Below are positions 3,340 through 33,414 of a DNA stretch of 34,681 nt, in pieces (within the stretch, counting starts at the first letter, position 1; each line of letters opens with the position of its first letter). Both the position numbers and the translations under genes were made by a program. This DNA comes from Candidatus Kuenenia stuttgartensis (GTDB lineage: Bacteria > Planctomycetota > Planctomycetia > Planctomycetales > Planctomycetaceae): contig CAMAWN010000042.1 of the NCBI GenBank assembly GCA_945861865.1, positions 1 to 34,681 on the forward strand, written 5' to 3'. A model generated the notes under the pieces. The model worked only from the letters and a program-made list of their open reading frames with translations. It did not search any database and was not told where the DNA came from.

Positions 3340-3762
3340 ATGCGACTGCTCGCCGGATTCTGTTTCTGGGGTTTGACGATCGTCTCGTTGACCGGTTGTG
3401 GAGCCAAATCGGAGCCTCGCCGAGTCGCGGTGCACGGTTCAGTGATCGTCGGCGACAAACTCGTGCCGGAAGCAACCGTTCGGTTTCTGCCAGAGGCCGG
3501 AAATGCTGGACCAGTGGCAATGACGAATGTTGTCGGCGGCTTGTACAACTTCACGAAGTTAGATGGTCCCTATCCCGGCAAGTACAAGGTGAGTGTGAAT
3601 CTGGAATTCAGCAGTCTGTCGAAAACCGCCAGCGACGATCCGAACGCTCCGCCGCCGCCGATGCAGTGGGAGCAGGAGATCACCATCCCTGACCAAGAAT
3701 CCGCAACGCATCACTTTCTTTGGAAAAGTCCCGAGGAACAAACCGCCGAATCAAAACCGTAG
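3340..3762 (+). CDS. Small secreted lipoprotein with carboxypeptidase-regulatory-like fold
   Basis: A 140-residue exported lipoprotein of unknown role. ATG 3340 is preferred over the in-frame TTG at 3319 because GGGAG lies 7 nt before it. The N-terminus has a hydrophobic signal peptide ending in a lipobox LTGC (lipidated Cys20). The mature part (GSVIVGDKLVPEATVRFLP ... GLYNFTKLDGPYPGKYKV) looks like the transthyretin/Ig-like 'carboxypeptidase regulatory-like' beta-sandwich that planctomycetes encode in many copies. It is often paired with a DUF1559 pseudopilin gene, as here (gene at 3868). The last codons run into a GTAG palindrome that supplies the stop codon. I infer a surface structural role. 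Confidence 0.88.
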   Translation: MRLLAGFCFWGLTIVSLTGCGAKSEPRRVAVHGSVIVGDKLVPEATVRFLPEAGNAGPVAMTNVVGGLYNFTKLDGPYPGKYKVSVNLEFSSLSKTASDDPNAPPPPMQWEQEITIPDQESATHHFLWKSPEEQTAESKP

Positions 3763-3783
3763 GTCAGCCTTTCTAGGCGGACT
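3759..3783 (+). repeat. GTAG-led imperfect palindrome containing the lipoprotein stop codon
   Basis: GTAGGTCAGCCT, a 4-nt loop, then AGGCGGACT form an imperfect hairpin; the TAG at 3760-3762 ends the lipoprotein gene. The sequence resembles an inverted, diverged copy of the perfect hairpin at 3815-3836, so both seem to belong to one dispersed family. Confidence 0.5.
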
Positions 3784-3814
3784 CATTTCGGAAACGACGT
3801 CAACCGGCTGTTCG

Positions 3815-3836
3815 GGTCAGGCTGGAAAGCCTGACC
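3815..3836. repeat. Perfect 9-bp hairpin, GGTCAGGCT / AGCCTGACC
   Basis: GGTCAGGCT at 3815-3823 pairs with AGCCTGACC at 3828-3836 around a GGAA tetraloop (GNRA type). It lies between the lipoprotein and DUF1559 genes, 31 bp before the latter's start, and could act as a processing or attenuation structure. I regard it as a member of a planctomycete dispersed palindrome family (GTCAGGCTTTCCAGCCTGAC in reverse orientation), from memory rather than a search. Confidence 0.6.
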
Positions 3837-3867
3837 GACGAAGAGTCGCGAGAGGTCCACGCGACTC

Positions 3868-4788
3868 ATGCCGTTTTTTTCTCGACGCTCTGCAAACGCT
3901 CGCCCAACCGGCTTCACGCTGATCGAACTGCTGGTGGTCATCGCGATCATCGGGATGCTCGTCGCGATCCTGCTGCCGGCCGTGCAGAACGCTCGCGAGG
4001 CCGCGCGGCGGACGCAGTGCAAGAACAATCTCAAGCAAATCGGCATCGGCCTGCACAACTACCACGACACCAACCGCTGCTTTCCGATGGGATCACACGT
4101 TCGGACATTCGCTTGGGGCAGTTTGTTGTCGCTGCTGCCGCACATCGAGCAACGTGCCGCGTTTCAAACGGTGGACTTCAACGCTCCGGATTGCTGTCTG
4201 TGGACAAAGCAGATGCAGGCCGCGAACAAGCCGGAACCGGCCAGCGTGCGGATCACGACCTACACCTGTCCGAGCGATCCACACTCCGGCCAAACGCTGC
4301 TCTCCGGCCCGATTGGACCGAACCCCGGGTCCGCCGATTGCGGCCTGCTGTACCCCGGCAACTATCTGGGAGTTTCCGGCGACACCGGCATCGGCTATCC
4401 GGCCTGCTTCTTCAGCATCACGGCGACCACTAAAGGCACCGGTATGATGTTCACACGCAGTTCGACTCGCATGGAGCATGTGAAAGACGGCACGTCGCAG
4501 ACTTTGTTTTTCGGCGAGCGCGGCTTGCCCAACGATCTCGGCTGGGGCTGGGTGATGTGCGGCGGTTCGGAATGCGAGCAATACCTCAGCCTGACAAACG
4601 GCTTGGTGCCGCCGCACGACATGCCAACCAATAGCATCACGGTCAGCAATTATTGGAGTTGGCATCTGGGCGGCGTCCACTTTCTACTGGTCGATGGCAG
4701 CGTGCGATTCCTGAGCCTCAACGTTTCGTACAACACGCTAAAAGCCCTGTCGACGAAATCGGCCAAAGACTTGGCCGGCGACTTTTGA
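3868..4788 (+). CDS. DUF1559 domain protein with prepilin-type N-terminus
   Basis: A 306-residue pseudopilin-like protein of the very large planctomycete DUF1559 family. Residues 15-40 are a type IV prepilin cleavage/methylation signal (GFTLIELLVVIAIIGMLVAI, with Gly15/Phe16 and Glu20), followed by the family hallmark NAREAARRTQCKNNLKQIG and LHNYHDTN. The C-terminus has the H-x9-DG-type motif (HFLLVDGSVRFL). It would be processed by a prepilin peptidase and anchored in the membrane; family members are thought to form surface or pseudopilus structures, but the function is not established. The small lipoprotein gene lies 105 bp upstream. Length is typical. Confidence 0.95.
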   Translation: MPFFSRRSANARPTGFTLIELLVVIAIIGMLVAILLPAVQNAREAARRTQCKNNLKQIGIGLHNYHDTNRCFPMGSHVRTFAWGSLLSLLPHIEQRAAFQTVDFNAPDCCLWTKQMQAANKPEPASVRITTYTCPSDPHSGQTLLSGPIGPNPGSADCGLLYPGNYLGVSGDTGIGYPACFFSITATTKGTGMMFTRSSTRMEHVKDGTSQTLFFGERGLPNDLGWGWVMCGGSECEQYLSLTNGLVPPHDMPTNSITVSNYWSWHLGGVHFLLVDGSVRFLSLNVSYNTLKALSTKSAKDLAGDF

Positions 4789-8174: not shown

Positions 8175-10507
8175 GGATGTACGTGGGGCACAAATCGTCT
8201 CAGTCGCAAACTGTTGGTCACGACCAGCACGCTGCTGGCGGACATCGCGGCCGCAGCGAAGCCCGGAGGCAGGATGATTGCGCCGAACGCCGAAAGCAAC
8301 CCGGACGCCAAGGGGATCGAGACCACGTTGTACGCGAATGCGAAGAACAGATTTTGGCGGATGATCCGCAGCGTGCGCCGAGCCAGTTCGATGGCGTGCG
8401 GTACGGCTCGTGGATCGCTGCCGACGAGCGTGACGTCAGCGGCTTCGATGGCAATGTCGGCTCCGGCCCCGATCGCGAATCCAACGTCGGCGACAGCGAG
8501 AGCGGGTGCGTCGTTGACTCCGTCGCCGATCATCGCAACTCGGCAGCCGGTCGCTTGCAGCGAGCGGACGACGTCGGCCTTCTCGCTCGGTAAGCGTTCG
8601 GCCTCGATCAGCGTGATGCCGAGCTTGTGCGCGACGTTTTGCACAACGGCCAATCGATCGCCGCTGATGAGGCCGGTGTCGATGTGCAGATGTCGCAGAG
8701 CCAGTGTCGCGGCGGACGCAGTCGGTCGCACTCGGTCTTCCGCGGCGAGAACGCCGAGAATTTGTTGGCCACATGCGACAAAAATGGGCGTGCGACTGAG
8801 CGATTCGATTCGTGCGGCAAGAGGTCGGAAGTGATCCCGTTTGGCAAGCGGGGGACGTGAATCCCCCGAGTCAGCCACGAGACTTCTCGGGGGACTCACG
8901 TCCGCTCGCCAATCTGGACCACGACTTCCGACCCCGTCGCATTCCAACCACCGCCAACTTCCAAGCAACACCGTTTCGCCACCGAGTTGGGCTTTCAATC
9001 CAAGGCCCGGTTCGGAATGCACTTGGTCCGGCATCGCGTCGAGCGGCACAGACTCTTGCTTCGCGAGTGCGACGACCGCTCGCGCGAGCGGATGATTCGA
9101 GACGGACGCGATCGTCGCCGCGACGCGCAACAGCTCGCAGCGAGAGACACTCTCCGATGGCAAGACCTCGACGATTTTCGGGCGGCCTTCGGTCAGTGTG
9201 CCGGTCTTGTCGAACAGTGCAATCTGCAACGACGCGGTTCGCTCCAAAGCCGCTCCGTCTTTGAAGAGCACTCCGAGTTCCGCACCCTTGCCCATTGCGA
9301 CCATCACGGCGGTCGGAGTTGCCAAGCCCAGAACACACGGGCAGGCGACGACCAGCACCGCGACCGCTCGCGAGATGGCCGTGTGAACGTCGATGTGATT
9401 CAGCCACCAGATCAACGTCACAGCGGCAATCGCCAGCACGATCGGCACGAAGATTCCAGCCACGCGATCCGCTAGTCGCGCGATCGGAGCTTTGCTCCCC
9501 TGAGCGTCTCGCACGAGCGCGGCGATGCGATGCAGCGTCATCTCATCACCAACCCGCTCGGTGCGGAAACGAAAGCTGCCCGATTGATTCACCGATCCGC
9601 CGAGCACTCGATCACCCGGTTGTTTGCGAACTGGCAGTGCTTCGCCGGTGAAGCTGCTCTCGTCGATCTCGGTGACGCCCGCCAAGACGACGCCATCCAC
9701 CGGGATGCGTTCGCCCGCGCGAACCAAGACGACGTCGCCAACCGCCACTTGATCGACCGGCAACTCGACTTCGCTTTCTTGAGTCAGCAGGTCTTGGGAG
9801 GACCGCAGCACATGCGCCGTTGGCGATTGCAGGTTCAACAGGTGGCCAATTGCGTCCGAGGCTTTGCGGCGCGCTCGCAGTTCCAATGTTCGGCCGAGCC
9901 GCACGAAGACAACGATCAGCACGGCGGCCGTGAAGTCCGAGCCGCACTGACCGCTCACGGCGGAATGTCCGACGTGGCTCCAGTCGGCTTTCAAAAGCTC
10001 CCCAAGCGACCACGCTCCGGCGAGATACGCGGAGCCAGCCCCCAAGGTAACCAGCACGTCCATGTCGAGCGCGGCGTGTCGTAGCGACCGAACAGCGTTG
10101 AAGAAGAACTCACGACCGCTCGTCAACAGCACCAACGTCGCCAACAACAGCATCCAAATTGGCGCGAGCGGCACGGACTCGACGAAGTACGCCAGCAGCA
10201 CAACGGCGAGCGCCGGCGCAGCGGGTCGAAGAAGCTCTTGAACTTGGAACGCGGCCAGCGGCGTCTGGACTTCGCCGCCGGATGTCAAATCGGCTGACGC
10301 CGGCAATTCGTTGGCGTGATAGCCGACCGCCTCGACCGCGCGAACGACATCTGGCTGATCGCCGTCGTGCTGCACGCGAGCTTCGTTCGTCGCCAAGTTG
10401 ACGGCGACGGCCACGACGCCGGGCAACTTGCCGATGGCGGTCTCGACACGCCCGACACAGGCGGCACAGTGCATCCCCTCGATCCGATAGCGCGCGGTGT
10501 GAGTCAT
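8171..10507 (-). CDS. copA: Heavy-metal (copper-type) P1B-ATPase with an in-frame palindromic insertion
   Basis: Inner-membrane ATPase predicted to export Cu+. ATG 10507 is chosen as the N-terminus of the metal-binding domain; the frame extends to a TTG at 10528, and neither start has a strong ribosome binding site. One HMA domain carries GMHCAAC (residues 11-17). Transmembrane helices, the actuator loop FTGEALPV, the transmembrane metal site CPC in VVACPCVLGLATP, the phosphorylation motif DKTGTLTEG, the SNHPLA motif of the N-domain and GDGVNDAPAL all follow in order, so the catalytic machinery is intact. CPC and the helix layout fit Cu+ rather than Zn2+ transport. Residues about 525-562 (GSRGPDWRADVSPP through PPLAKRDHF) have no counterpart in the family and are encoded by the palindromic element at 8823-8933. 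The total length is 778 residues. No adjacent copper regulator or chaperone gene was found. Confidence 0.95.
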   Translation of the reverse strand: MTHTARYRIEGMHCAACVGRVETAIGKLPGVVAVAVNLATNEARVQHDGDQPDVVRAVEAVGYHANELPASADLTSGGEVQTPLAAFQVQELLRPAAPALAVVLLAYFVESVPLAPIWMLLLATLVLLTSGREFFFNAVRSLRHAALDMDVLVTLGAGSAYLAGAWSLGELLKADWSHVGHSAVSGQCGSDFTAAVLIVVFVRLGRTLELRARRKASDAIGHLLNLQSPTAHVLRSSQDLLTQESEVELPVDQVAVGDVVLVRAGERIPVDGVVLAGVTEIDESSFTGEALPVRKQPGDRVLGGSVNQSGSFRFRTERVGDEMTLHRIAALVRDAQGSKAPIARLADRVAGIFVPIVLAIAAVTLIWWLNHIDVHTAISRAVAVLVVACPCVLGLATPTAVMVAMGKGAELGVLFKDGAALERTASLQIALFDKTGTLTEGRPKIVEVLPSESVSRCELLRVAATIASVSNHPLARAVVALAKQESVPLDAMPDQVHSEPGLGLKAQLGGETVLLGSWRWLECDGVGSRGPDWRADVSPPRSLVADSGDSRPPLAKRDHFRPLAARIESLSRTPIFVACGQQILGVLAAEDRVRPTASAATLALRHLHIDTGLISGDRLAVVQNVAHKLGITLIEAERLPSEKADVVRSLQATGCRVAMIGDGVNDAPALAVADVGFAIGAGADIAIEAADVTLVGSDPRAVPHAIELARRTLRIIRQNLFFAFAYNVVSIPLASGLLSAFGAIILPPGFAAAAMSASSVLVVTNSLRLRRFVPHVHP
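8823..8933. mobile_element. 111-bp palindromic element inserted in frame within the P-type ATPase gene
   Basis: The outer terminal inverted repeats are exact: GGTCGGAAGT (8823-8832) and ACTTCCGACC (8924-8933). Inside them, GGCAAGCGGGGGACGTGA followed by ATCCCCCGAG mirrors CTCGGGGGACTCACGTCC followed by GCTCGCC, with two substitutions and a 3-nt indel, so nearly the whole element folds on itself. Its length is 37 codons exactly and it has no stop in the host frame. The encoded segment sits between the GSWRWLECDG strand and the LAARIESL helix of the ATP-binding domain, where homologues have a short loop. It resembles the Rickettsia palindromic elements that insert inside genes. It has no ORF of its own and would have to be mobilised in trans. 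Confidence 0.85.
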
Positions 10508-24670: not shown

Positions 24671-25990
24671 TTACTGTTGAGCCAACGGAAGTTCCAGTGT
24701 CTTCGAGCCTCGCAGGACGGTCACTTTGATCAAATCCGACGGGCGTTTGGTTTGCAGGAGCTTGGCAATTAACCCAGATTCGGTGAGTGGCGAGCGGTCG
24801 CCGTCGATCGCGATCAAAACGTCGTCCTTCAGAAATCCCGCCCGTTTCGCGACTGCGTGATCGTTGTATTGCCCGACGTGTTTCACCAGCAGTGCGAGTT
24901 GATCGTTGGGCAGTTTTCGTTCGCGCCGCAAGTCTTCGGGCAGCGACTCCAACCGCAAGCCTCCCAGCGTCATCCGCCGCAAGTCCCACGAGGTCGCCCG
25001 CCACGAGATGTCGTCACGCTGCCGCCAACCCTTGGCGAGCATCAGTGTCAGCGATTGCTTCTGGCCGTCCCGCAAGACCTCCGCTTTCAACTTGTCGGTC
25101 TCACTTGCGTGATGCAGAACCCATTGCACGTCCGCGATCGACAACAGCGGTTGACCGGAGAGCGTCACGAGTTCGTCGTCGGCGCGAAAGCCACTTTGTT
25201 CTGCCGCCGATCCGGCCGTGACCTGTTTAACCTTGGCCTTCTCTTTCGGATCGAGAATCAGCCCTAAGGCTTTGGGGTTCGGATACGGGTACAAAACTTT
25301 GTCCGAAATCGGTTTCTCGGTCGATCGAGCCACGAACCGCAACGCCTCGCCGACTTGATGACAGTGGATGCAGCTCTGCACCACCTTCCCTTCGTAGTCG
25401 AGCTTCGCACCGTACTTCCCTTTGAACGATGGGAATTGCTCCGGCACCTTGACGTCCGAAGTCGGTCCGCGCTTCGCCGTCAGCGCGGCCTTGTTGTTTG
25501 GAAACCGAGCGTGCAATTCCAACGCTCCGCTGATCGCTTTGGAAAAACCTTCGAGCGAGACATCGTCCTTCGATTCCGTCTGGTGCGATCGCGTGCCATA
25601 CCGGCCGTAGATCGTCATATCGGCATTCAAGAAAAACGCCGCCCACGACTGGTCGTAATCGAACTGAAATTGCGACAAGTCCATCCCGTTCGCATGGACA
25701 ATCCGCACGCAGACGAACTTGTCGAGCAACTCGCGAATGCGAGGATCACGCTGCACAACATCTTCGTCAAGCTGAGCACACGCTTCGCAGGGGATGCAGC
25801 GAAAGACAACCAGAAGCGGCTTCTTGGATTCCTTCGCCCGTTCGATCCCGTTCGGCAGGTCGTTGTAGATCCAATAGCCGTCCCCTTCGACTCGCTGCTT
25901 GTCACCTCGGACTTTTGTCTCTCGGTCAGCAGCGAGCATCGCGGTCGTGGATACCAAAATGAGCAGCACTGCGAGCGTCATTGTTTTCAT
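24671..25990 (-). CDS. Trx7/PDZ domain protein (Cys form) with CxxCH motif
   Basis: An exported 439-residue protein. ATG 25990 follows GGAG; the signal peptide ends near residue 21 (MLAAD). A thioredoxin-like domain (about 35-165) carries Cys65, Cys68 and Cys71 in FRCIPCEAC. A SCIHCHQ segment (Cys207, Cys210, His211) could attach c-type haem or act as a redox pair. Two PDZ-like domains follow (about 245-315 and 340-439; GSAAEQSGFRADDEL, VAKRAGFLKDDVLIAIDGD). This matches the architecture annotated as 'Trx7/PDZ domain-containing (seleno)protein', in which some members use selenocysteine; here every position is Cys. A periplasmic thiol-redox or metal-reduction role is likely. It starts 42 bp after the last gene of the MNIO operon and may be its fifth member. 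Confidence 0.88.
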   Translation of the reverse strand: MKTMTLAVLLILVSTTAMLAADRETKVRGDKQRVEGDGYWIYNDLPNGIERAKESKKPLLVVFRCIPCEACAQLDEDVVQRDPRIRELLDKFVCVRIVHANGMDLSQFQFDYDQSWAAFFLNADMTIYGRYGTRSHQTESKDDVSLEGFSKAISGALELHARFPNNKAALTAKRGPTSDVKVPEQFPSFKGKYGAKLDYEGKVVQSCIHCHQVGEALRFVARSTEKPISDKVLYPYPNPKALGLILDPKEKAKVKQVTAGSAAEQSGFRADDELVTLSGQPLLSIADVQWVLHHASETDKLKAEVLRDGQKQSLTLMLAKGWRQRDDISWRATSWDLRRMTLGGLRLESLPEDLRRERKLPNDQLALLVKHVGQYNDHAVAKRAGFLKDDVLIAIDGDRSPLTESGLIAKLLQTKRPSDLIKVTVLRGSKTLELPLAQQ

Positions 25991-26032: not shown

Positions 26033-26521
26033 TCACCAGCCGAGACGGACTGTGAACCAGCGTTCGCCGATTCTCGGCCATCGCAAAGCGATCACCAGCC
26101 GGCGCGGTTGAGTCAGCCAAGCGAATTTGATGGTTGCCCACCGTCGAGGATGCAAGCCATCCCGAGATCGTACAAATCGGACATCGACCGCCAGCGTTTG
26201 CAGCCGAACAGCCTCAGAAAGCCAGCCACGCTGACGCGTCCAATTGGCGAATCCTCGGCCATCAGCCAGTGGGCCGCCGTGCCTTGGTTGGGGAGTCGTC
26301 TCGGCATACGCGGCGAATTGTTCTGGAAACTCCAATCCAAGATGGCGAGCCAATGTCGGCCAGGCTCGAGCAACGCTGCGGCAACGCTTTCGCAACAGCG
26401 ATTCCGTGGCAACGTGCAGATGCTCGGCATCGAAGCCCACAGGGATGGCTCCGTCGCTCACCAGCGCAGAGACAACTGCCGCCTGTTGGGTCGCCAGCCG
26501 ACTTCTCGCTGCCGCGGACAT
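26033..26521 (-). CDS. Small partner protein of DUF692 (SCO6045-type)
   Basis: A 162-residue cytoplasmic protein without a signal peptide. ATG 26521 begins 1 bp after the DUF692 stop, with GAGGAG positioned inside the end of the upstream gene. The first 75 residues (RLATQQAAVVSALVSDG, VPxGFDA-like segment, LLRKRCRSVARAWPTLARHLG, FPEQFAAYA) match from memory the small proteins adjacent to DUF692 and TIGR04222 genes in actinobacteria. The pattern is also loosely like the DUF2063 partners (HvfC/BufC/TglI type) of other MNIOs, which deliver the peptide substrate to the iron enzyme. The C-terminal 40 residues are basic and Trp/Arg-rich. I infer a substrate-recognition role. Family naming should be checked by profile search. 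Confidence 0.78.
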   Translation of the reverse strand: MSAAARSRLATQQAAVVSALVSDGAIPVGFDAEHLHVATESLLRKRCRSVARAWPTLARHLGLEFPEQFAAYAETTPQPRHGGPLADGRGFANWTRQRGWLSEAVRLQTLAVDVRFVRSRDGLHPRRWATIKFAWLTQPRRLVIALRWPRIGERWFTVRLGW

Positions 26522-26522
26522 G

Positions 26523-27401
26523 TCAGCTCCTCGAGGTGGTTGCCAATTGCGATTCCCGAATCAACGACGTCCGCCGTTCGGCTCCGAGAGATATCGCAGC
26601 GGCGATCCGATCAAGTTCACGATTTAGACCGTTCGGCGTCGGGAAGTCGTCATCGCGTTCCAGCATGATGCCCGGCACCGAAGTTCGGGCACACAATTCG
26701 GACACCAAATCAAGCACGCCTGCAGGAATGTCGTGAGCGTGTGTGTCGTGGTAGACGCCGCCACGCTCGATGCCGCCGGCCACATGCACATACGCGATGC
26801 GATCCAGCGGGAGTTGACCGAAAAACTCCAACGCATCTCCGCCATGATTCCGAACGTTCGCGTACACATTCTCCAAATCGAGCAGCAGCAGAGCGTCGGT
26901 TCGTTCCAGAATCTCGGTCACGAAGGCCGCCTCATCCAGTTCAGGATCGGGCCAATTGAAGAGCGTGGCGATGTTCTCCAAAGCCAGGGGCACCGGCAGC
27001 ACGCGCTGAGCTTGTCGCACGTTTTCGACCACGACATCCACGGCCTCGCGAGTCCGAGGCAACGGCAACAAGTGCCCGGACTCGTGGCCTCCGGCCCGCA
27101 CGAACGCCAGGTGTTCGCTGACCAGCGGCGCATTGACCCGCTCGGCCAGTCGAGCCAAATGATCGAGACGTCCACGATCGAGCGGCTCGGCACCTCCCAA
27201 CGACAGCGAGACTCCGTGAGGAATGACGATCACGCCACGTCGTCGGAGTTGCTCGATCGGCTCAGGAAGCGGAGCATCTGTCGCGATGTCTTCGGCAACA
27301 ACTTCGACAAAACCGAGGTCATGGCGACGATCGATCGACAGCGCCAGTTCCGGACGCCAACCGATCCCCAGCCCCAATGGTGAAACTCGCAACGAGGTCA
27401 T
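26523..27401 (-). CDS. DUF692 / MNIO family multinuclear non-haem iron oxidative enzyme
   Basis: A cytoplasmic TIM-barrel oxygenase of 292 residues. ATG 27401 overlaps the TGA of the upstream TIGR04222 gene (ATGA), so translation is coupled; an in-frame upstream extension lies in the Cys-tail coding region and is rejected. Family landmarks are in place: GLGIGWRPELA (about 10-20), His62 (IPHGVSLSLGG), His97 (VSEHLAF), Glu142 (ALENIATLF), Asp175 and Asn178 (LLDLENVYAN), His206 (YVHVAGG), the Asp219/His221/His223 group (HDTHAHDIP) and Glu248 (MLERDDDF). These are the iron ligands and active-site residues of MbnB-, TglH- and BufB-type enzymes, which oxidise cysteines in peptides to oxazolones, thiolate products or related heterocycles. 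The membrane protein encoded just upstream offers a Cys-rich C-terminal tail as a likely substrate. Confidence 0.95.
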   Translation of the reverse strand: MTSLRVSPLGLGIGWRPELALSIDRRHDLGFVEVVAEDIATDAPLPEPIEQLRRRGVIVIPHGVSLSLGGAEPLDRGRLDHLARLAERVNAPLVSEHLAFVRAGGHESGHLLPLPRTREAVDVVVENVRQAQRVLPVPLALENIATLFNWPDPELDEAAFVTEILERTDALLLLDLENVYANVRNHGGDALEFFGQLPLDRIAYVHVAGGIERGGVYHDTHAHDIPAGVLDLVSELCARTSVPGIMLERDDDFPTPNGLNRELDRIAAAISLGAERRTSLIRESQLATTSRS

Positions 27402-28294
27402 CCCCCACAGCCTCCACAACCGCCGCCTCCGCATCCGCCACCACAACTACTTCCACTTCCGCCACAACTGCTGCCGCAACTGCCTCCGCTGGAGCTTGCC
27501 TGCGGAGGCGGTCGCAGAGTGAGAACCAAATGCGACAGCGGCCCCTCGGTGAGGATGCTCACCCCGAACAAGCCGACCGCCAGAAGCAAGTCACCACTGG
27601 TTAGTTGGCTGGAATCGCGCGCTGCGCTGACGATCAAGGCCGCATTCTCGGACTTCAATCGGGCCAACAAATGATCTCCACGCCGGCTGCGTTGGACTTT
27701 TCGGCCGAGGACTGCCAGGCCAATGACCACGGTGGCGACACAGGCAAACATCAAGAACACCACCGGCCTCCCACGCGAAATCCCGACACCAATCTTGAAC
27801 ACACCCAAGAGCGGAACACACAGAAAGAGCAGCAGTGGCAACAGTCGCGCGAGCCACGCATCGCCGTCGCTCACGATCAATCCAAGTTCTTGAAGCTGTC
27901 GTTTCAACGGCTTCATCGCCGGCGCGATCTGTTCTCGAACCGTCGCGACTTCGACGCCGGACTCGGCATCTCCGATGGCTTCGTGAATGGCTTGTTCGAC
28001 AGCGGCCGGTTGCTTCGGGAGCGGGCCTGTGCTGCGTGTCAGAGTTCGTTTCGTGGCACTCGCCGTCAGCACATCTCGTTGAACCATTCGAGCAATCGCA
28101 GCGTCGAAAGTACCGGCCTCGGCCCCCGCCAAATACGTTACTTCGTACGGCGAAAGTTCACTCGCCTCCGCACCGACGTCCGTGGCGGGAGTGCGAAGCC
28201 ACCATCGCAACGCGAAGCCTGCCGGCAAAACGAGCGCCGCCAGCACAAAATAAAACACCATGAACTGCGGTCCGGTCAAGTTGAGTGGATTCAT
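27398..28294 (-). CDS. TIGR04222-type membrane protein with Gly/Ser/Cys-only C-terminal tail
   Basis: A 298-residue membrane protein. ATG 28294 overlaps the TGA of the preceding gene (ATGA). Transmembrane segments are predicted at about 11-30, 150-170 and 176-197. The region between TM1 and TM2 (LSPYEVTYLAGAEAGTFDAAIARM) carries the 'YEVAYLxGG' signature of the TIGR04222 domain. After about residue 265 the sequence contains only Ser, Gly and Cys, with cysteines at 273, 277, 284, 288, 293 and 296 and ending CGGCGG. The tail is not a known metal-binding fold and resembles a RiPP core region. TIGR04222 proteins recur next to DUF692 genes in actinobacteria and elsewhere. I infer that the tail is the MNIO substrate, remaining tethered to the membrane for metal binding or redox. 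The tail's coding sequence runs directly into the DUF692 start. Confidence 0.9.
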   Translation of the reverse strand: MNPLNLTGPQFMVFYFVLAALVLPAGFALRWWLRTPATDVGAEASELSPYEVTYLAGAEAGTFDAAIARMVQRDVLTASATKRTLTRSTGPLPKQPAAVEQAIHEAIGDAESGVEVATVREQIAPAMKPLKRQLQELGLIVSDGDAWLARLLPLLLFLCVPLLGVFKIGVGISRGRPVVFLMFACVATVVIGLAVLGRKVQRSRRGDHLLARLKSENAALIVSAARDSSQLTSGDLLLAVGLFGVSILTEGPLSHLVLTLRPPPQASSSGGSCGSSCGGSGSSCGGGCGGGGCGGCGG

Positions 28295-29043
28295 GGAAGC
28301 GGCCCTTTCATCCGATCCACCACCTCGACAATCAGCGTCAGTGACTCCAGTGCCCCACGACACAGTTCCACGATGTTGCCGGGGGCTTGTGAGTCGTGAC
28401 GGAGGGCCGCCAACTCCGACAATAATTCGCGATTCAAACCGAACTCTACAGCGGCCGTTTCGAAAATCGTCGCCGACCGATCATCCCCAGGAATCGGTTT
28501 GCCAACCAACTGCAGCAACGCGGCCAGTTCCAACGCCAACGGTCGAACCACTGTGGTCAGCGCGCGAGCCAACATCGTCGAGTCATCAATCGCCGCGAGA
28601 TAGCGCCGCCTGAGTCGCATCAGCATATTCCGCAACTCTTGCTCGATCCGCAGACGAACATGTTCGCGAGACACGTCGATCCCAGAAAATGGATTCTCTC
28701 CGAACAGCACGACGTGGTGCGATTTGATGTCGAGGAACTTTGTCGGAAAGACTTCGGCGGCACGAACGGCCTCGTCAGAAGTCAGCACCAGCGGTTCGAC
28801 AGCCGCCGCCCGCCAGGCTTTCTTGAGCGCCGGAGCGATTGCCGAAAGCGCACTCGGAGTCGCATCTCGCAACAGCACGACGACATTGGCATCGCTCTTG
28901 CCCGGCCGATACCGACCGCGTGCCAGCCCCCCGTACAGAATCAATCCGGCGAAGTTGTTCCCAGCGGCAGCCGTCAGGTCCACTTTCAACTGATCCAGCG
29001 CCGCGCTGATGCTGGGGGGGACCGCAGACAACGAATCAGGCAT
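28291..29043 (-). CDS. Nucleotidyltransferase-fold protein, first gene of the MNIO operon
   Basis: A cytoplasmic protein of 250 residues. ATG 29043 follows GGGAGG by 4 nt; an upstream extension to 29115 crosses the leader palindrome. Residues about 33-60 (LILYGGLARGRYRPGKSD then ANVVVLL) match the Pol-beta/MNT nucleotidyltransferase hairpin GSxARG...SDxDxxV, with Asp51 kept and the second acidic residue replaced by Asn53. The C-terminal part (about 115-245) is all-helical, like the substrate-binding helices of MNT/HEPN-linked proteins. The D-x-N change may abolish or alter metal binding, although this variant seems to be a recurrent subgroup. Its ATGA overlap with the TIGR04222 gene shows it belongs to the operon. 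A regulatory or tail-modifying (for example nucleotidylating) role is conceivable. Confidence 0.86.
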   Translation of the reverse strand: MPDSLSAVPPSISAALDQLKVDLTAAAGNNFAGLILYGGLARGRYRPGKSDANVVVLLRDATPSALSAIAPALKKAWRAAAVEPLVLTSDEAVRAAEVFPTKFLDIKSHHVVLFGENPFSGIDVSREHVRLRIEQELRNMLMRLRRRYLAAIDDSTMLARALTTVVRPLALELAALLQLVGKPIPGDDRSATIFETAAVEFGLNRELLSELAALRHDSQAPGNIVELCRGALESLTLIVEVVDRMKGPLP

Positions 29044-29089
29044 GACACCTCCCTCAAGCCACCGATGCCGAACGTGAAATCTGCAAACG

Positions 29090-29109
29090 CGAGTGCCACT
29101 CGGCACTCG
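29090..29109. promoter_or_regulatory. Perfect palindrome in the leader of the MNIO operon
   Basis: CGAGTGCC (29090-29097), ACTC, GGCACTCG (29102-29109) is an exact 8-bp inverted repeat centred about 57 nt upstream of the ATG at 29043. Position and symmetry fit an operator for a dimeric repressor, or a short mRNA hairpin. No regulator gene lies in the operon. Confidence 0.35.
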
Positions 29110-29130
29110 GATCAATCAGGCAGGGATTGC

Positions 29131-29165
29131 AAAACGCCCCGCCGAACTCAGGTTTCGGCGGGGCG
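29131..29165 (-). terminator. Intrinsic terminator of the molybdenum hydroxylase operon
   Basis: On the minus strand a perfect 12-bp GC-rich stem, CGCCCCGCCGAA (29154-29165 complement) with TTCGGCGGGGCG (29135-29146 complement), encloses a 7-nt loop and is followed by TTTT. It lies 38 bp after the stop of the FAD-subunit gene (29204). It separates that operon from the MNIO operon, whose start is 88 bp further on, so the MNIO operon should have its own promoter in that gap. Confidence 0.85.
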
Positions 29166-29203
29166 ATCTCGATGGCGCGGAACAGTGAGCCGTTGAGGAC
29201 TGA

Positions 29204-30229
29204 CTACAAAATTTCGCCGAGTTGATTCGTGGCTTTGAGCAACGCTCGCTTCACCGCCGTCTCCGCCATCTGAACTTTGTAGTCGTTGTGGCTGAGTGGC
29301 GTCGCTTTCGCGAGAGCCATGCGGCCGGCAGTTTCGGCGATGTCTGCAGTCAGCGGTTGACCGACCAGCCACTTGGCCGCTTCGTGAGCGACCCACGGAG
29401 TCGGTGCCACATGACCGAGCACGATCTTCGCGTTCCGAACAATGCCACCATCGATGCCGAGGCAGCACGCGGCACTGGCTTGCGGTTGATCGAGTCCGCA
29501 GAGTTCCAAGACTTCATAGGTCGCGCTGCGTGTGTCGCTCGCGGCCGGCAGCCACACATGCGTGATGAGCTGACCTGGCTTGAGCACCGTCACACCTTGC
29601 GAGTTCACCTTCGGCGTCTGGAAGAAGTAATCGAGCGGCAACCATTCTTCCTTCGGGGCAATGGCATCGGCTCCCTCGCTCGCGCTTCGGGCTAGTGTGA
29701 CAAGTCTCACTTTCGCATCCCACGCGATTGTGGACGGGGCGAAACGTGAGGCACTGACGAACTTTGCCGGGCCGCTGTTGCCGAGGATGGCGTGGTAGCG
29801 GTTGTCGCCGGTGGCGACGAGCGATTCACCGTCTTGCATCGCCAGCAGACCGTGGCCGTTGCGGAAGTACCAGCAGTGCGGAAGCTGGCACAGGTCTCCG
29901 GCCAGCGTGCCGTTCGCCGTGATCTGGATGGCTCGAATGCCTTCGATCACGTCGATCAGCGAGCGGTAGTCGGCGGCCAGCGCGTGCTCGTGGATTTCGT
30001 CGAGCGTCGTGTTCGCGCCGATCAACACTCCGCCGTCGTGTGGCTTGATGCCTCGCCACGCCGCAACGTTTTTGATGTCCACGACGCGAGCCGGTTGGAT
30101 CACATCGCGTTTGAGCAGATTCATCAGGTCGGTCCCGCCGGCCAGGACCGTGGTATTGCCGCCGTGTTCGGCGAGCAGTTCCAGCGCTTCGGCCTCGGTT
30201 TCCGGACGAGCGTATTCAAAGGATCGCAT
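29204..30229 (-). CDS. Molybdenum hydroxylase FAD-binding subunit (xanthine dehydrogenase/CoxM-like)
   Basis: The FAD subunit (341 residues) passes electrons from the Fe-S subunit to an acceptor. ATG 30229 follows GAGG. It has the PCMH-type FAD motif LAGGTDLMNLLKRDV near residue 30, a second FAD segment ANGTLAGDLCQLPHCWYFR at about 104-122, and the C-terminal CO-dehydrogenase flavoprotein domain. The AGDLCQ..HCWYFRNG form, with a long His-Cys stretch, is as in 4-hydroxybenzoyl-CoA reductase-like and aldehyde-oxidoreductase relatives. Between AWDAKVRLV and WLPLDYFF there are about 12 extra residues (TLARSASEGADAIA) encoded by a probable dispersed repeat at 29661-29700. It is third in an S-L-M operon, 56 bp after the large-subunit stop. 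Confidence 0.94.
   Translation of the reverse strand: MRSFEYARPETEAEALELLAEHGGNTTVLAGGTDLMNLLKRDVIQPARVVDIKNVAAWRGIKPHDGGVLIGANTTLDEIHEHALAADYRSLIDVIEGIRAIQITANGTLAGDLCQLPHCWYFRNGHGLLAMQDGESLVATGDNRYHAILGNSGPAKFVSASRFAPSTIAWDAKVRLVTLARSASEGADAIAPKEEWLPLDYFFQTPKVNSQGVTVLKPGQLITHVWLPAASDTRSATYEVLELCGLDQPQASAACCLGIDGGIVRNAKIVLGHVAPTPWVAHEAAKWLVGQPLTADIAETAGRMALAKATPLSHNDYKVQMAETAVKRALLKATNQLGEIL
29661..29700 (-). repeat. 'LARSASEG' dispersed repeat inside the FAD-subunit gene
   Basis: On the minus strand the sequence CTAGCCCGAAGCGCGAGC, then GAGGGAGC, encodes LARSASEG in the host frame. I know this string from many planctomycete ORFs (another reading frame gives SPKRERG), where it marks a dispersed repeat. 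Family members have a short turn at this position, so it appears as an in-frame insertion of about 12-13 codons. Only one copy is present in the window, so the repeat assignment rests on recall. Confidence 0.55.
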
Positions 30230-30285
30230 GGTTTGACCTCACGTTGAGGGAATGGATTGAAAAGAGTGTTTCCACCGAATCGAGG

Positions 30286-32451
30286 TTACGCCTTCGCCGC
30301 TTTGAGTGCATCGAGCACTCGCTTCGGCGTGAGCGGAATCGTCGGCACGCGGACTCCGGTGGCGTTCGCGACCGCGTTGCTGATAGCAGCTCCGCAGGCG
30401 ATGACCGGAGGTTCGCCGAGACCGATGACGCCTCGTTCGTATTCGCTGTCCGGTTGGTACATCTCGACGATCAACTCGCCGATGTCGCCGAGACGTGGAA
30501 GCTTGTAGTTCTCCAGGGCGGCGTTGATGTAGCGGCCGGTATTGTTGTCGAGAATTTGTACCTCGGTCAACGAGTATGCGATACCCATAATCAAGCCGCC
30601 GTAGACTTGGCTCTTGGCGGTCAGCAGGTCCACGATCAGCCCGCAGTCTTGGACGGCGACGAATTGATTCATGCGGACGATGCCGGTCTTGATGTCGACC
30701 GAGACATCTGCCATCTGCACGCCGCCGACTTGCTCGCTGGTCAGGCCGTCGTCCTTCGGGCCTTCGCCTTGAGTCTCGATGCCCATCTGGCCGAGCAGTC
30801 CGCACGCGGCTTTCCAGGTGCAGACTTCTTTGTCGCCGGACCAAATCTTTCCGCCCTTGGCCTTCAGCGAGTTGCCGTCGACTTTGTGCTTCTCGGCGAC
30901 CACGTCAAACAGCTTGCCGAGTGCAGCGATTGCGGCGCGGCGATTCGGGCCGGAAGTGCCGCCGATGGTCGTGCTGCCGCCAGACGGGCCGGAGCGTGGA
31001 TAAACGCTCGAACCGTAGCGGACCTTCACGGCGTCGAGCGTGATGCCGAACGTTTCGGCGAGCACCATCGCGATCGTGGTGCGCGTGCCGGTGCCGATGT
31101 CCTGCGTGCCACTGAGCGACTCGACGCTGCCGTCCGGATTGATGCGAACGGTGCAAGTCCCGGCGTGTGCGCGGCCACCCCAAGTGTGGATGGCCATGCC
31201 GAGTCCGCGCTTGATGTCACCATCGCCACCTTTGCCGTGCGGGTGCCACTTCTTCGACCAACCGATGAGTTCGGCCGCTCGTTTGATTTCGGCAACGTAG
31301 GTCGCCTGCAACTTCTCGGGCGTCTTGTCGATGTTGGCCAGGAACACATCGACCGCGCTCTTGCCGAGCTTGGCCGCGATGTCGTCGATCGCCGTGTCGG
31401 TCAACGCACAGAGTTGCGGGTGCGGCGGAGCACGCCACGCTCGGTCGGGACCGGCGTTGGTCATCAAGCCGGTGGCCTTGCGATTGCGGTTGTCGAAGTC
31501 GAAGACGTACGGGAACTGCGCGAGATTGATCGTGCCGCCCTTCATGCCTCCGTTCGTGCCCCAGTGATGGCTGTCCCAGGCGACGATCTTGCCGTCCTTG
31601 TCGGCGGCGATCGTGACGTCGGCGAAACCGCTCGGCCGAGTGCCGGCGATCTTGAGTTCCGTCGCGCGATCGAGCATCAACCGCACGGGACGGCCGGTCT
31701 CTTTGGACATCTTCGCGGCGGCGACGCCCCAATCGTCGGCGGCGAACTTCGAGCCGAAGCCGCCTCCCACGAATTGGCAGAGCACCGTCACGTCGGCCGC
31801 ATCGACCGAGATGTTGTGTTGCTTTTGCAATTCGCTGACGAAGTTCGCCGGCGTGCCGCTGACGTTTTGCGTCGAGTGATTGACGATCAGTTTGCCGTCT
31901 TCCCAGCGAGTGCAGGAGCCGTGCGTTTCGAGGCACATGTGGCTGATCGTCGCGATGCCGTAGCTCCCCTTGTGAACCACGGCGGCCGTCTTGAGTGCGG
32001 CCTCGACGTCACCCTTGGTGTTGTTGCCGAGATCTTTGGTTCGCTTGGCGGCCTCGGCCCCCTTCAGGTCGTCTTCATCGACGAAGTGTTCCATCGCATC
32101 GAAGGTGAACTTGATGGCTCGCACGCCGTCTTCGGCTTGCTCCTGTCGTTCGGCGGCGACGGCTGCGACCAGCGCGCCGTCCCATTGCAGTTCGTCACCT
32201 TCTTTGACGAAGGCGTGGACCGCTTTCACGCCGGGGACTTTCAGGGCTTCGGAGAGGTCCAGCGATTTGACCTTGCCGGCTCCACCTTTGAAGCTCAGCA
32301 CTTTGGCAAAGAGGCACCCCTTCGGGTTGGCATCGGCCGCGTACTTCGCCGCTCCGGAGGCTTTGTCGATGCCGTCCAGACGCGTGATTTCTTTGCCGAG
32401 ATAGACGTTGTCCTTGCGAGGCCCCCAGGCCACTTTGAGTTCAGTCGCCAT
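30286..32451 (-). CDS. Molybdenum hydroxylase large (Mo-cofactor) subunit
   Basis: The catalytic subunit (721 residues) of a xanthine dehydrogenase/aldehyde oxidase-type enzyme, binding molybdopterin-cytosine or -guanine dinucleotide. ATG 32451 follows GGGAGG and lies 2 bp after the small-subunit stop. The N-terminal 'a/b hammerhead' domain starts at ITRLDGIDKASGAAKYAAD. The Mo-binding domain has QFVGGGFGSKF, the RAWRAPPHPQ loop (usually RGPG), GTQDIGTGTRT and the catalytic glutamate in GLGEPPVI near the C-terminus. It has no signal peptide of its own, so export would need the Tat signal of its Fe-S partner. The substrate could be an aldehyde, a purine or another N-heterocycle; the changed loop argues against assigning CO dehydrogenase. 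Confidence 0.95.
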   Translation of the reverse strand: MATELKVAWGPRKDNVYLGKEITRLDGIDKASGAAKYAADANPKGCLFAKVLSFKGGAGKVKSLDLSEALKVPGVKAVHAFVKEGDELQWDGALVAAVAAERQEQAEDGVRAIKFTFDAMEHFVDEDDLKGAEAAKRTKDLGNNTKGDVEAALKTAAVVHKGSYGIATISHMCLETHGSCTRWEDGKLIVNHSTQNVSGTPANFVSELQKQHNISVDAADVTVLCQFVGGGFGSKFAADDWGVAAAKMSKETGRPVRLMLDRATELKIAGTRPSGFADVTIAADKDGKIVAWDSHHWGTNGGMKGGTINLAQFPYVFDFDNRNRKATGLMTNAGPDRAWRAPPHPQLCALTDTAIDDIAAKLGKSAVDVFLANIDKTPEKLQATYVAEIKRAAELIGWSKKWHPHGKGGDGDIKRGLGMAIHTWGGRAHAGTCTVRINPDGSVESLSGTQDIGTGTRTTIAMVLAETFGITLDAVKVRYGSSVYPRSGPSGGSTTIGGTSGPNRRAAIAALGKLFDVVAEKHKVDGNSLKAKGGKIWSGDKEVCTWKAACGLLGQMGIETQGEGPKDDGLTSEQVGGVQMADVSVDIKTGIVRMNQFVAVQDCGLIVDLLTAKSQVYGGLIMGIAYSLTEVQILDNNTGRYINAALENYKLPRLGDIGELIVEMYQPDSEYERGVIGLGEPPVIACGAAISNAVANATGVRVPTIPLTPKRVLDALKAAKA

Positions 32452-32453
32452 GA

Positions 32454-33083
32454 TTACTTGCCTCCCTTCTTCGTCACGAGTTCCATCGCACAGGCGGTGA
32501 TGCCGACGTACGTGCCGCAGCGGCAGATGTTCCCGCCGAGCCCATTGCGAACTTGGGCGAGCGTCGCGCCTGGGTTCTTGTCGCAGAAGGCTTTCGTGGC
32601 CATCACGAAGCCTGGCGTGCAGAAGCCGCATTGCGAGGCGTCATGCTTCACGAAGCCCGCGACGACTGGATCGTTGGCCGCCAGCGACTCGATGGTCGTG
32701 ACTTTCTTGCCGACGCATTCGATCGCCAAGCGGCTGCAAGCGTAGGTCGGCTTGCCGTCGATGAGCACGGTGCAGGCTCCGCAGTTGGTCGTGTCGCAGA
32801 CGTCCTTGCAGCCGGTGAGGTTCAGGTCGTCGCGGAGCGTGTCGAGCAATGTGACTCGCGGTTCCAACGACAGCTTGTGGTCTTTGCCGTTGACGCGGAG
32901 TGTCACGTCCTGCGCTTTGGCGGACGCGACATTCTTTTTGGTGGCGTCTTGAGCGGTGGCTCCGTGGTCGCTGGTGGCCAGCGCGGTGACGGCGACAGCC
33001 GCTCCGGAGCCTCGCAAGAAATCACGGCGATTGACGCCGGAGCCATTCTCTTGCGGAATGGTCTCTTCACGGGGGTCTCGCAT
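32454..33083 (-). CDS. Molybdenum hydroxylase [2Fe-2S] subunit with Tat signal
   Basis: A 209-residue iron-sulphur subunit. ATG 33083 follows GGGAG. The N-terminus has an unusual twin-arginine signal (VNRRDFLRGSGAAVAVTAL, cleaved near GATAQD), so the folded enzyme should be exported, carrying the large subunit as a passenger. The plant-type [2Fe-2S] domain reads CDTTNCGAC ... YAC, and the C-terminal helical [2Fe-2S] domain reads QCGFCTPG ... NICRCGTY, giving the full eight-cysteine set. An extra Cys in TGCKDVC precedes the first cluster. First gene of the operon; its promoter lies in the 33084-33414 gap. Confidence 0.95.
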   Translation of the reverse strand: MRDPREETIPQENGSGVNRRDFLRGSGAAVAVTALATSDHGATAQDATKKNVASAKAQDVTLRVNGKDHKLSLEPRVTLLDTLRDDLNLTGCKDVCDTTNCGACTVLIDGKPTYACSRLAIECVGKKVTTIESLAANDPVVAGFVKHDASQCGFCTPGFVMATKAFCDKNPGATLAQVRNGLGGNICRCGTYVGITACAMELVTKKGGK

Positions 33084-33414
33084 CTGGTTCTCCCTCTACA
33101 GTGGTTGCGAAACGATGACCGGGTCGCGGGCCGAAACTGTCGGACGAAAACGAGCAGATCAAAACGAGCAACTTCGCAGAGACGCGAAGCGGTCAGGCCG
33201 AAACTCCCAACCCACGACGTGCGGAACGCGGGGGATGATAGCCACCGCGCAAAGCATCACAACGAACCGATGCGAAATTTCGGCGCGGAATCTCCTTTCG
33301 AAGCGGGGGGCCGCGCGCGGACCGCTGGCGATGGCGAACCGATCGTTGCATAATGGGGACGCGACCGGATGCCCCGTGGCGAGCCAAGCCACGCCGAGTG
33401 GAGAGGCCCCCCGC
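33084..33414. other. Divergent intergenic region (331 bp)
   Basis: Between the Fe-S subunit gene (minus) and the Mrr region (plus). It is GC-rich and has no supported gene. TTGCATAATGG near 33346-33356 could contain a -10 element for the plus strand, and GTGGC...GCCAC near 33376-33392 can form a short hairpin. Minus-strand promoter elements were not identified. Confidence 0.4.

Follow-up and report, generated by a model that had tools for sequence, protein, structure and literature searches.

In the bufferin and oxazolin systems, as set out in the relevant parts of two articles, an enzyme of the MNIO family and its partner protein act on cysteines to form a copper-binding thiooxazole (PMC12452194, PMC13419390). 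Antoine et al. 2025 reported gene clusters in which TIGR04222 proteins are accompanied by an MNIO and a PME-type 2 partner, and the passages of their article on these proteins display C-terminal cysteine-rich tails, including that of Pirellula staleyi, propose the tail as the substrate of the MNIO and predict that it lies on the periplasmic side (PMC12452194). Here we analysed a stretch of DNA of 34,681 nucleotides (the window; contig CAMAWN010000042.1 of assembly GCA_945861865.1, Candidatus Kuenenia stuttgartensis, genome code G000), in which a TIGR04222 protein, an MNIO and a probable partner share an operon with a nucleotidyltransferase-like gene (gene 1). We find that gene 1 belongs to a widespread and apparently non-catalytic family whose members recur beside membrane proteins with glycine-rich tails, both where the tail carries cysteines and a modifying enzyme is encoded nearby and where it does not. 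Codes beginning with G denote genomes and those beginning with L denote loci; P0001, P0003 and P0004 are genes 1, 3 and 4.

The features of the operon, all on the minus strand, are as follows.

28291..29043, minus strand: gene 1, a nucleotidyltransferase-like protein of 250 amino acids with a predicted ANT/KNTase-type fold and a degenerate metal site (AlphaFold2, Foldseek, Pfam).
28885..28932, minus strand: residues 38-53 of gene 1, GG...D51-A-N53, with asparagine at the second canonical aspartate (91-row alignment).
27398..28294, minus strand: gene 2, a TIGR04222 membrane protein of 298 amino acids with four candidate membrane segments (149.4 bits, cut-off 43).
27401..27496, minus strand: C-terminal tail of gene 2, 32 residues of glycine, serine and cysteine with six cysteines, the presumed substrate (tail comparison, 49 carriers).
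26523..27401, minus strand: gene 3, an MNIO (DUF692, PF05114) of 292 amino acids (profile match, conserved ligand-type residues).
26033..26521, minus strand: gene 4, the MNIO partner, 162 amino acids, probably of PME-type 2 (AlphaFold2, Foldseek).

A first-pass annotation, made from the sequence without database searches, had described these four genes as coupled, and a check of frames and overlaps reproduced its coordinates and joints: ATGA overlaps join genes 1 and 2 and genes 2 and 3, and a gap of 1 base pair (bp) separates genes 3 and 4. The tail restricted to glycine, serine and cysteine and the MNIO with its expected ligand residues were likewise found as described there. Profile searches placed genes 2 and 3 in TIGR04222 and PF05114, whereas gene 1 fell below the family cut-off and gene 4 matched no family.

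The distribution of gene 1 was followed in a sample of 150 genomes from the order of the window genome, in a phylum sample of 392 genomes, 18 of which exceeded the TIGR04222 cut-off, and in a wide scan of one genome per species across 84,980 species, which yielded 384 relatives of gene 1; the loci of the best 80 were read (L057-L136). The MNIO loci read in the order were those adjoining a TIGR04222 gene or gene 1, some of similar score (L139-L141), and L142 and L143. Gene 1 was matched in 15 of the 150 order genomes. In eight of the 150, window included, it is followed by one or more cysteine-tail carriers and then by an MNIO, at nine loci altogether (the window, G103, G064, G080, G142, G115 twice, with one gene 1 in pieces, G017 and G027), and a partner is labelled at all of these except that of G064. 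Four further order genomes have gene 1 adjoining a TPM-type protein (G045, G006, G009 and, by eye, G019), in G143 it lies (L042) away from the cassette of that genome (L139), and in G093 and G133 it is present only as a piece. Seen from the other side, gene 1 adjoins nine of the 12 cysteine-tail MNIO loci read in the order sample. Signs of degeneration were met in several places: the DNA of G133, a genome of the same genus (L043, L156), matches window positions 28810-33285 at 89.5% and the match ends inside gene 1, and degenerate cassettes with an MNIO in two frames (L174) or gene 1 in pieces (L044) were also seen.

Seven of the 18 positive genomes of the phylum sample carry gene 1 directly upstream of the TIGR04222 gene, the matches being 48-231 bp apart, and six of these seven fall outside the family of the window genome. 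An MNIO follows downstream in four (the window, L158, L159 and L160); in L157 a radical S-adenosylmethionine (SAM) enzyme stands upstream of gene 1, in G354 the contig end cuts the locus and its contig L171 has the end of a TIGR04222 gene, an MNIO and a partner, and L161 is degenerate, its TIGR04222 gene being truncated and an MNIO not being found. The succession of gene 1, cysteine-tail gene and MNIO also occurs in Myxococcota and Verrucomicrobiota, so that the genes, for which the first-pass annotation had suggested a neighbourhood survey, do co-occur outside the window genome, in the same order, the phylum and beyond. In seven of 13 relatives measured, gene 1 overlaps the cysteine-tail gene by 4 bp when every frame is begun at its first start codon. 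As both the gene order and this overlap recur in other genomes, the arrangement is not due to chance.

The best 80 of the 384 relatives show that the MNIO setting is one of several. TPM and/or LemA genes accompany gene 1 at 52 of these loci, a set that recurs across many phyla; 15 stand beside an MNIO (L064 among them) and three beside a TIGR04222 cysteine-tail protein together with a radical SAM/SPASM enzyme. As for the rest, L084 has a TIGR04222 gene at the contig end, eight have no such neighbour, several of them near contig ends (L057, L071, L081), and L077, at a contig end, has no frame called, its TIGR04222 protein sitting with a radical SAM gene. Representatives were checked against Pfam as TPM (PF04536), LemA (PF04011) and Radical_SAM with SPASM. 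Our literature searches found no paper that places a nucleotidyltransferase beside an MNIO/DUF692 gene, in keeping with the suggestion of the first-pass annotation that this is an undescribed addition, and none that ties LemA or TPM to a nucleotidyltransferase or describes the set of TPM, nucleotidyltransferase-like protein and LemA.

The nature of gene 1 is settled by its fold, since a profile search against the sequences of the Protein Data Bank (PDB) returned unrelated matches first and nucleotidyltransferases weakly. The Pfam model NTP_transf_2 (PF01909) scores 17.6 bits on gene 1, under its gathering cut-off of 21, and matches at E<=0.01 in 38 of 77 members of the gene-1 family. The AlphaFold2 model, built from 77 input sequences, has a predicted local distance difference test (pLDDT) of 94.7, and in a Foldseek search of the PDB the 33 chains that reached E<=0.001 were without exception nucleotidyltransferases (AAD(9), AadA, ANT types, HalB and KNTase), with a top E of 2.5e-6 and a maximal template modelling (TM) score of 0.63 (6p01, ANT-4). 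By this modelled structure gene 1 is of the Pol-beta type of nucleotidyltransferase fold. We take D-x-D at positions 51 and 53 of gene 1 to be the canonical metal site, which agrees with PDB titles of solved relatives in which such a pair was mutated (HalB D21A/D23A, MntA D39E/D41E). Gene 1 of the window retains the G38-G39 loop and D51 and has asparagine at position 53. In an alignment of 91 rows, a few of which are copies from one genome, rows of TPM/LemA context have G-S in 52/52, Asn53 in 52/52 and D51 in 48/52; rows of MNIO context have G38 in 14/15, D51 in 3/15 and D53 in 2/15, and D51 occurs in 0/11 further rows taken from alignment A1. The full D-x-D is present in one row only (L065, MNIO context). 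Conservation peaks elsewhere, in an FP-K/E-F stretch and in a helix starting near residue 126. The nucleotidyltransferase call of the first-pass annotation thus holds for the predicted fold but not for the canonical site, which is broken (D51-x-N53), and judged by its residues the gene-1 family is apparently non-catalytic.

What gene 1 accompanies is a tail rather than a particular protein. In gene 2 each of the six cysteines of the tail precedes a glycine. The carriers found beside gene 1 and an MNIO are of three types, namely TIGR04222 proteins, zinc-ribbon-like proteins and proteins of one or two helices. The zinc-ribbon-like carriers (L044-L047, L050, L072 and others) are marked by an N-terminal cysteine pattern, most of them with some four membrane segments, and that of L047 gave no family match in a profile search; the minimal carriers of Verrucomicrobia consist of 67-87 amino acids with one or two membrane helices and the tail (L086, L119). 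Two tandem cysteine-tail genes are present at L044, L046 and L050. The tail is the constant element, and its carrier varies. Across 49 carriers, whose rows are related by descent and in which cysteines were counted unless they were the last residue, the 31 tails of MNIO loci have glycine after cysteine in 167/179 cases and before it in 116/179 (glycine background 0.66), the five tails of radical SAM loci in 24/27 and 27/27 (background 0.78), and the 13 tails with neither enzyme at the locus (12 and L084 at its contig end) in 63/72 and 69/72 (background 0.80). The glycine-tailed TPM proteins at the loci of the best 80 have no cysteine in their last 30 residues, with one exception (L102).

Two further observations concern carriers. 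In nine order genomes (L144-L151, L154) TIGR04222 proteins of 500-600 amino acids have cysteine tails, and no MNIO was labelled in the 6-10 kilobases read; their tails are among the 13 with neither enzyme, in which 69/72 cysteines follow a glycine. At L050, positions 9201-10397 (plus strand), a protein of 398 amino acids without a Pfam match ends in GGGCGGGCGGCGGGD; it lies on the strand opposite to the nearby cassette and is perhaps a further kind of cysteine-tail carrier.

Gene 3 matches PF05114 at 274.9 bits (cut-off 25) and is nearest to BufB (198.1 bits, cut-off 310) and HvfB (181.3 bits, cut-off 360), belonging to neither NCBIfam equivalog. In 35 MNIO sequences taken from the retrieved loci, H62, H97, E142, D175 and N178 are present in 35/35 and H206, D219, H221 and E248 in 34/35; these are residues of the type expected to bind the metal, and three of them are counterparts of the site-3 residues named for HvfB. 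These three, N178, D219 and H221, correspond, by the family motif and not by alignment with HvfB itself, to HvfB N175, D242 and H244, each reported in the pertinent part of that article to be required for activity (PMC13419390). For gene 4 neither Pfam nor NCBIfam gave a match. Its model (pLDDT 71.9) shows a helical N-terminal domain followed by a short beta part, and Foldseek against the PDB gave weak matches, with NGO1945 (3dee, E 0.31) at rank 1 and MbnC (7dz9_C, E 0.80) at rank 9 and TM scores of at most 0.38; both proteins are partners of MNIOs. In a set of 13 partner sequences DUF2063 was matched below threshold by one (0.0086) and PF07746 LigA by two (best 3.7e-6), and searching the PDB sequences with a profile of the partner gave nothing relevant. 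Partners of PME-type 2 bear no DUF2063 signature but resemble NGO1945 or TglI in structure; judged from its model, gene 4 is a probable partner of this type. At L158, positions 3470-4642 (minus strand), the MNIO frame continues into partner-like sequence, an apparent fusion of MNIO and partner. Where a radical SAM enzyme takes the place of the MNIO, its nearest models are SbtM (153.6 bits, cut-off 350) and ACGX (136 bits, cut-off 400) at L061, and ACGX (130.8 bits) and SbtM (113.3 bits), under the same cut-offs, at L083.

Trees of gene 1 (a quick one of 99 rows and a careful one of 94, after setting aside 11 and 10 rows, respectively, whose context is different or unknown and which fall in both parts of the tree) separate the cysteine-tail contexts, that is MNIO, radical SAM or carrier alone, from the TPM/LemA context by one change on both trees. 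Among the cysteine-tail rows of the careful tree the MNIO and radical SAM contexts require three changes, and a tree that unites the four rows with radical SAM in a single clade is rejected (approximately unbiased test, p-AU 5.9e-7; the quick tree was already known at the time of this test). This is naturally read as an exchange of the modifying enzyme with tail and gene 1 retained, the trees not showing the direction of gain or loss.

Based on these data we consider it fairly probable that the operon yields a membrane-anchored tail with modified cysteines and that gene 1 serves glycine-tailed membrane proteins as a non-catalytic partner. Gene 2 would provide the membrane scaffold that bears the tail of Cys-Gly repeats, and the MNIO with its partner would oxidise the cysteines of the Cys-Gly units; by analogy to bufferins and oxazolin the products would most likely be rings of the 5-thiooxazole type that bind copper. 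That the tail of a membrane protein serves as MNIO substrate, as the first-pass annotation held, is likely to be sound but is not new, having been proposed in the TIGR04222 passages of PMC12452194. Gene 1, a soluble protein, would stand outside the oxidation chemistry and would bind or escort the tailed membrane protein as an adaptor or chaperone without nucleotidyl transfer, a role that we infer from its genomic context and its lost metal site. A broader proposal we put forward tentatively, with somewhat less than even confidence: that these widespread dead nucleotidyltransferases are dedicated partners of membrane proteins with glycine-rich tails, in one branch cysteine-poor TPM proteins, often with LemA, and in another proteins whose tails gained Cys-Gly repeats and are modified after translation, MNIO and radical SAM enzymes as well as scaffolds being interchangeable.

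Several observations weigh against this account. The relevant passages of PMC12452194 propose, but do not demonstrate, that a TIGR04222 protein is modified. TIGR04222 cysteine-tail loci without an MNIO alongside were found in nine order genomes and at L165, L166 and L168 in the phylum, so that a modifying enzyme need not adjoin the tail gene, and the TIGR04222 proteins of L152, L153, L155 and L170 have no cysteine tail. The TPM proteins of L120, L130 and L055 lack a glycine tail in the called frame. No gene 1 was found near the TIGR04222-MNIO or cysteine-tail MNIO loci L137, L138, L139, L167 and L169. G133 (91% complete) retains no more than a fragment of gene 1, and neither TIGR04222 nor an MNIO was matched in this genome; the operon has thus apparently been lost from it, and the system appears to be dispensable. 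As to the side of the membrane, simple hydropathy and counts by the positive-inside rule give answers that vary with the carrier and with the criterion: in one comparison the tail is mostly outside in the TIGR04222 type and mostly inside in the zinc-ribbon-like type, and in a second the result is equivocal or opposite, with the TPM type more often outside and three minimal carriers inside, so that we make no case against the published periplasmic prediction. With regard to catalysis, L065 keeps the full D-x-D, L064, also of MNIO context, has aspartate at position 53, and gene 1 could bind nucleotide or catalyse via other residues.

Some of these points bear on other explanations of the operon. 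The cysteines of the tail might not be oxidised by the MNIO, the bare tail binding metal or forming crosslinks while the MNIO acts on another peptide; TIGR04222 cysteine-tail proteins without an adjoining MNIO are common among the loci read, and according to the same passages of PMC12452194 over a quarter of the TIGR04222 proteins have no C-proximal cysteine. Among the MNIO-context loci of the wide scan the gene order has exceptions, as the MNIO lies upstream of gene 1 and carrier at L065, the carriers follow gene 1 at L086, another frame separates carrier and MNIO at L119, and no carrier was seen at L080 and L087. Yet in most cassettes read the cysteine-tail gene stands immediately before the MNIO, tail genes occur in tandem, and the enzymes that replace the MNIO are radical SAM proteins nearest to SbtM and ACGX, and we hold this explanation to be unlikely. 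Gene 1 might instead have nucleotidyltransferase activity and work as an on/off switch through adenylylation of gene 2, the MNIO or a small molecule, for which its ANT/AAD(9)/KNTase fold, the G-[GS] loop and D51 kept in the window, the retention of D51 in nearly all TPM/LemA-context members and the complete D-x-D of L065 can be adduced. The HalB and MntA mutants show, however, which pair was thought important, and its second aspartate is asparagine in the window and in every TPM/LemA-context member, while D51 itself is rare in MNIO context and absent from the further A1 rows. As the D-x-D is lost in 90/91 rows we downgraded the active-enzyme explanation, which we regard as distinctly unlikely. 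Finally, gene 1 could be a bystander kept by chance or by a past linkage to TPM/LemA genes, since it is absent from some cassettes and is located away from the cassette in G143; its recurrence directly upstream of TIGR04222, mostly outside the family of the window genome, and the conserved core that it keeps make this very unlikely. A role in antiphage defence was also considered and set aside: PADLOC gave weak PDC-S09 matches to gene 1 alone (2.5e-6, 25.7 bits, residues 10-62; and 1.6e-4) and no match to genes 2-4.

If the preferred explanation, a modified membrane-bound tail with gene 1 as its non-catalytic partner, is true, the peptide-modifying chemistry of MNIOs reaches membrane-tethered protein tails and does so with a recurring non-enzymatic partner. 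The occurrence of MNIO and radical SAM enzymes beside like tails would then be a natural experiment on which chemistry each installs, and gene 1 would offer a handle on TPM/LemA operons, for which we found no literature link to a nucleotidyltransferase.

Two observations concern the surroundings of the operon. A Trx7/PDZ (seleno)protein is encoded at 24671-25990 (minus strand), 42 bp past gene 4 (NF041199, 411.3 bits, cut-off 300), and none was labelled beside the other cassettes in which it was used as a query. The window genome has two more MNIOs (contigs C237 and C104; L142 and L143), of 189.7 and 186.5 bits, with different neighbour genes.

Compared with known systems, gene 1 shares its overall fold with ANT/AAD(9)/AadA/KNTase, HalB and MntA, and up to 26/77 members of its family give weak profile matches (E<=0.01) to several such nucleotidyltransferase models; it differs from them in that the family has D-x-D in 1/91 rows and stands in the operon context of a membrane tail. 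The SbtM and ACGX radical SAM/SPASM maturases provide the nearest NCBIfam models for the enzymes of L061 and L083, but these two are not members, scoring far under the cut-offs, and they sit with a TIGR04222 cysteine-tail protein and gene 1. With the bufferin and oxazolin systems of BufB/HvfB type the operon has in common a PF05114 MNIO with a partner protein, whereas their precursors bear Sec signal peptides, the candidate substrate here is a membrane protein, and gene 4 is not a DUF2063 match. It is most similar to the TIGR04222-MNIO-PME type 2 clusters as portrayed in the corresponding passages of PMC12452194, sharing a TIGR04222 protein with a Cys/Gly/Ser tail, an adjacent MNIO and a small partner that is not DUF2063. 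The main text of that paper does not mention a nucleotidyltransferase, zinc, LemA or TPM, and the word 'radical', used there four times, does not occur in its TIGR04222 section, where radical SAM enzymes are not named as neighbours. To the published clusters the present analysis adds the gene-1 family, the setting with radical SAM enzymes, and carriers that are zinc-ribbon-like or consist of one or two helices with the tail; genes 2-4 match the published operon type, and the apparently non-catalytic gene-1 family is the main addition.

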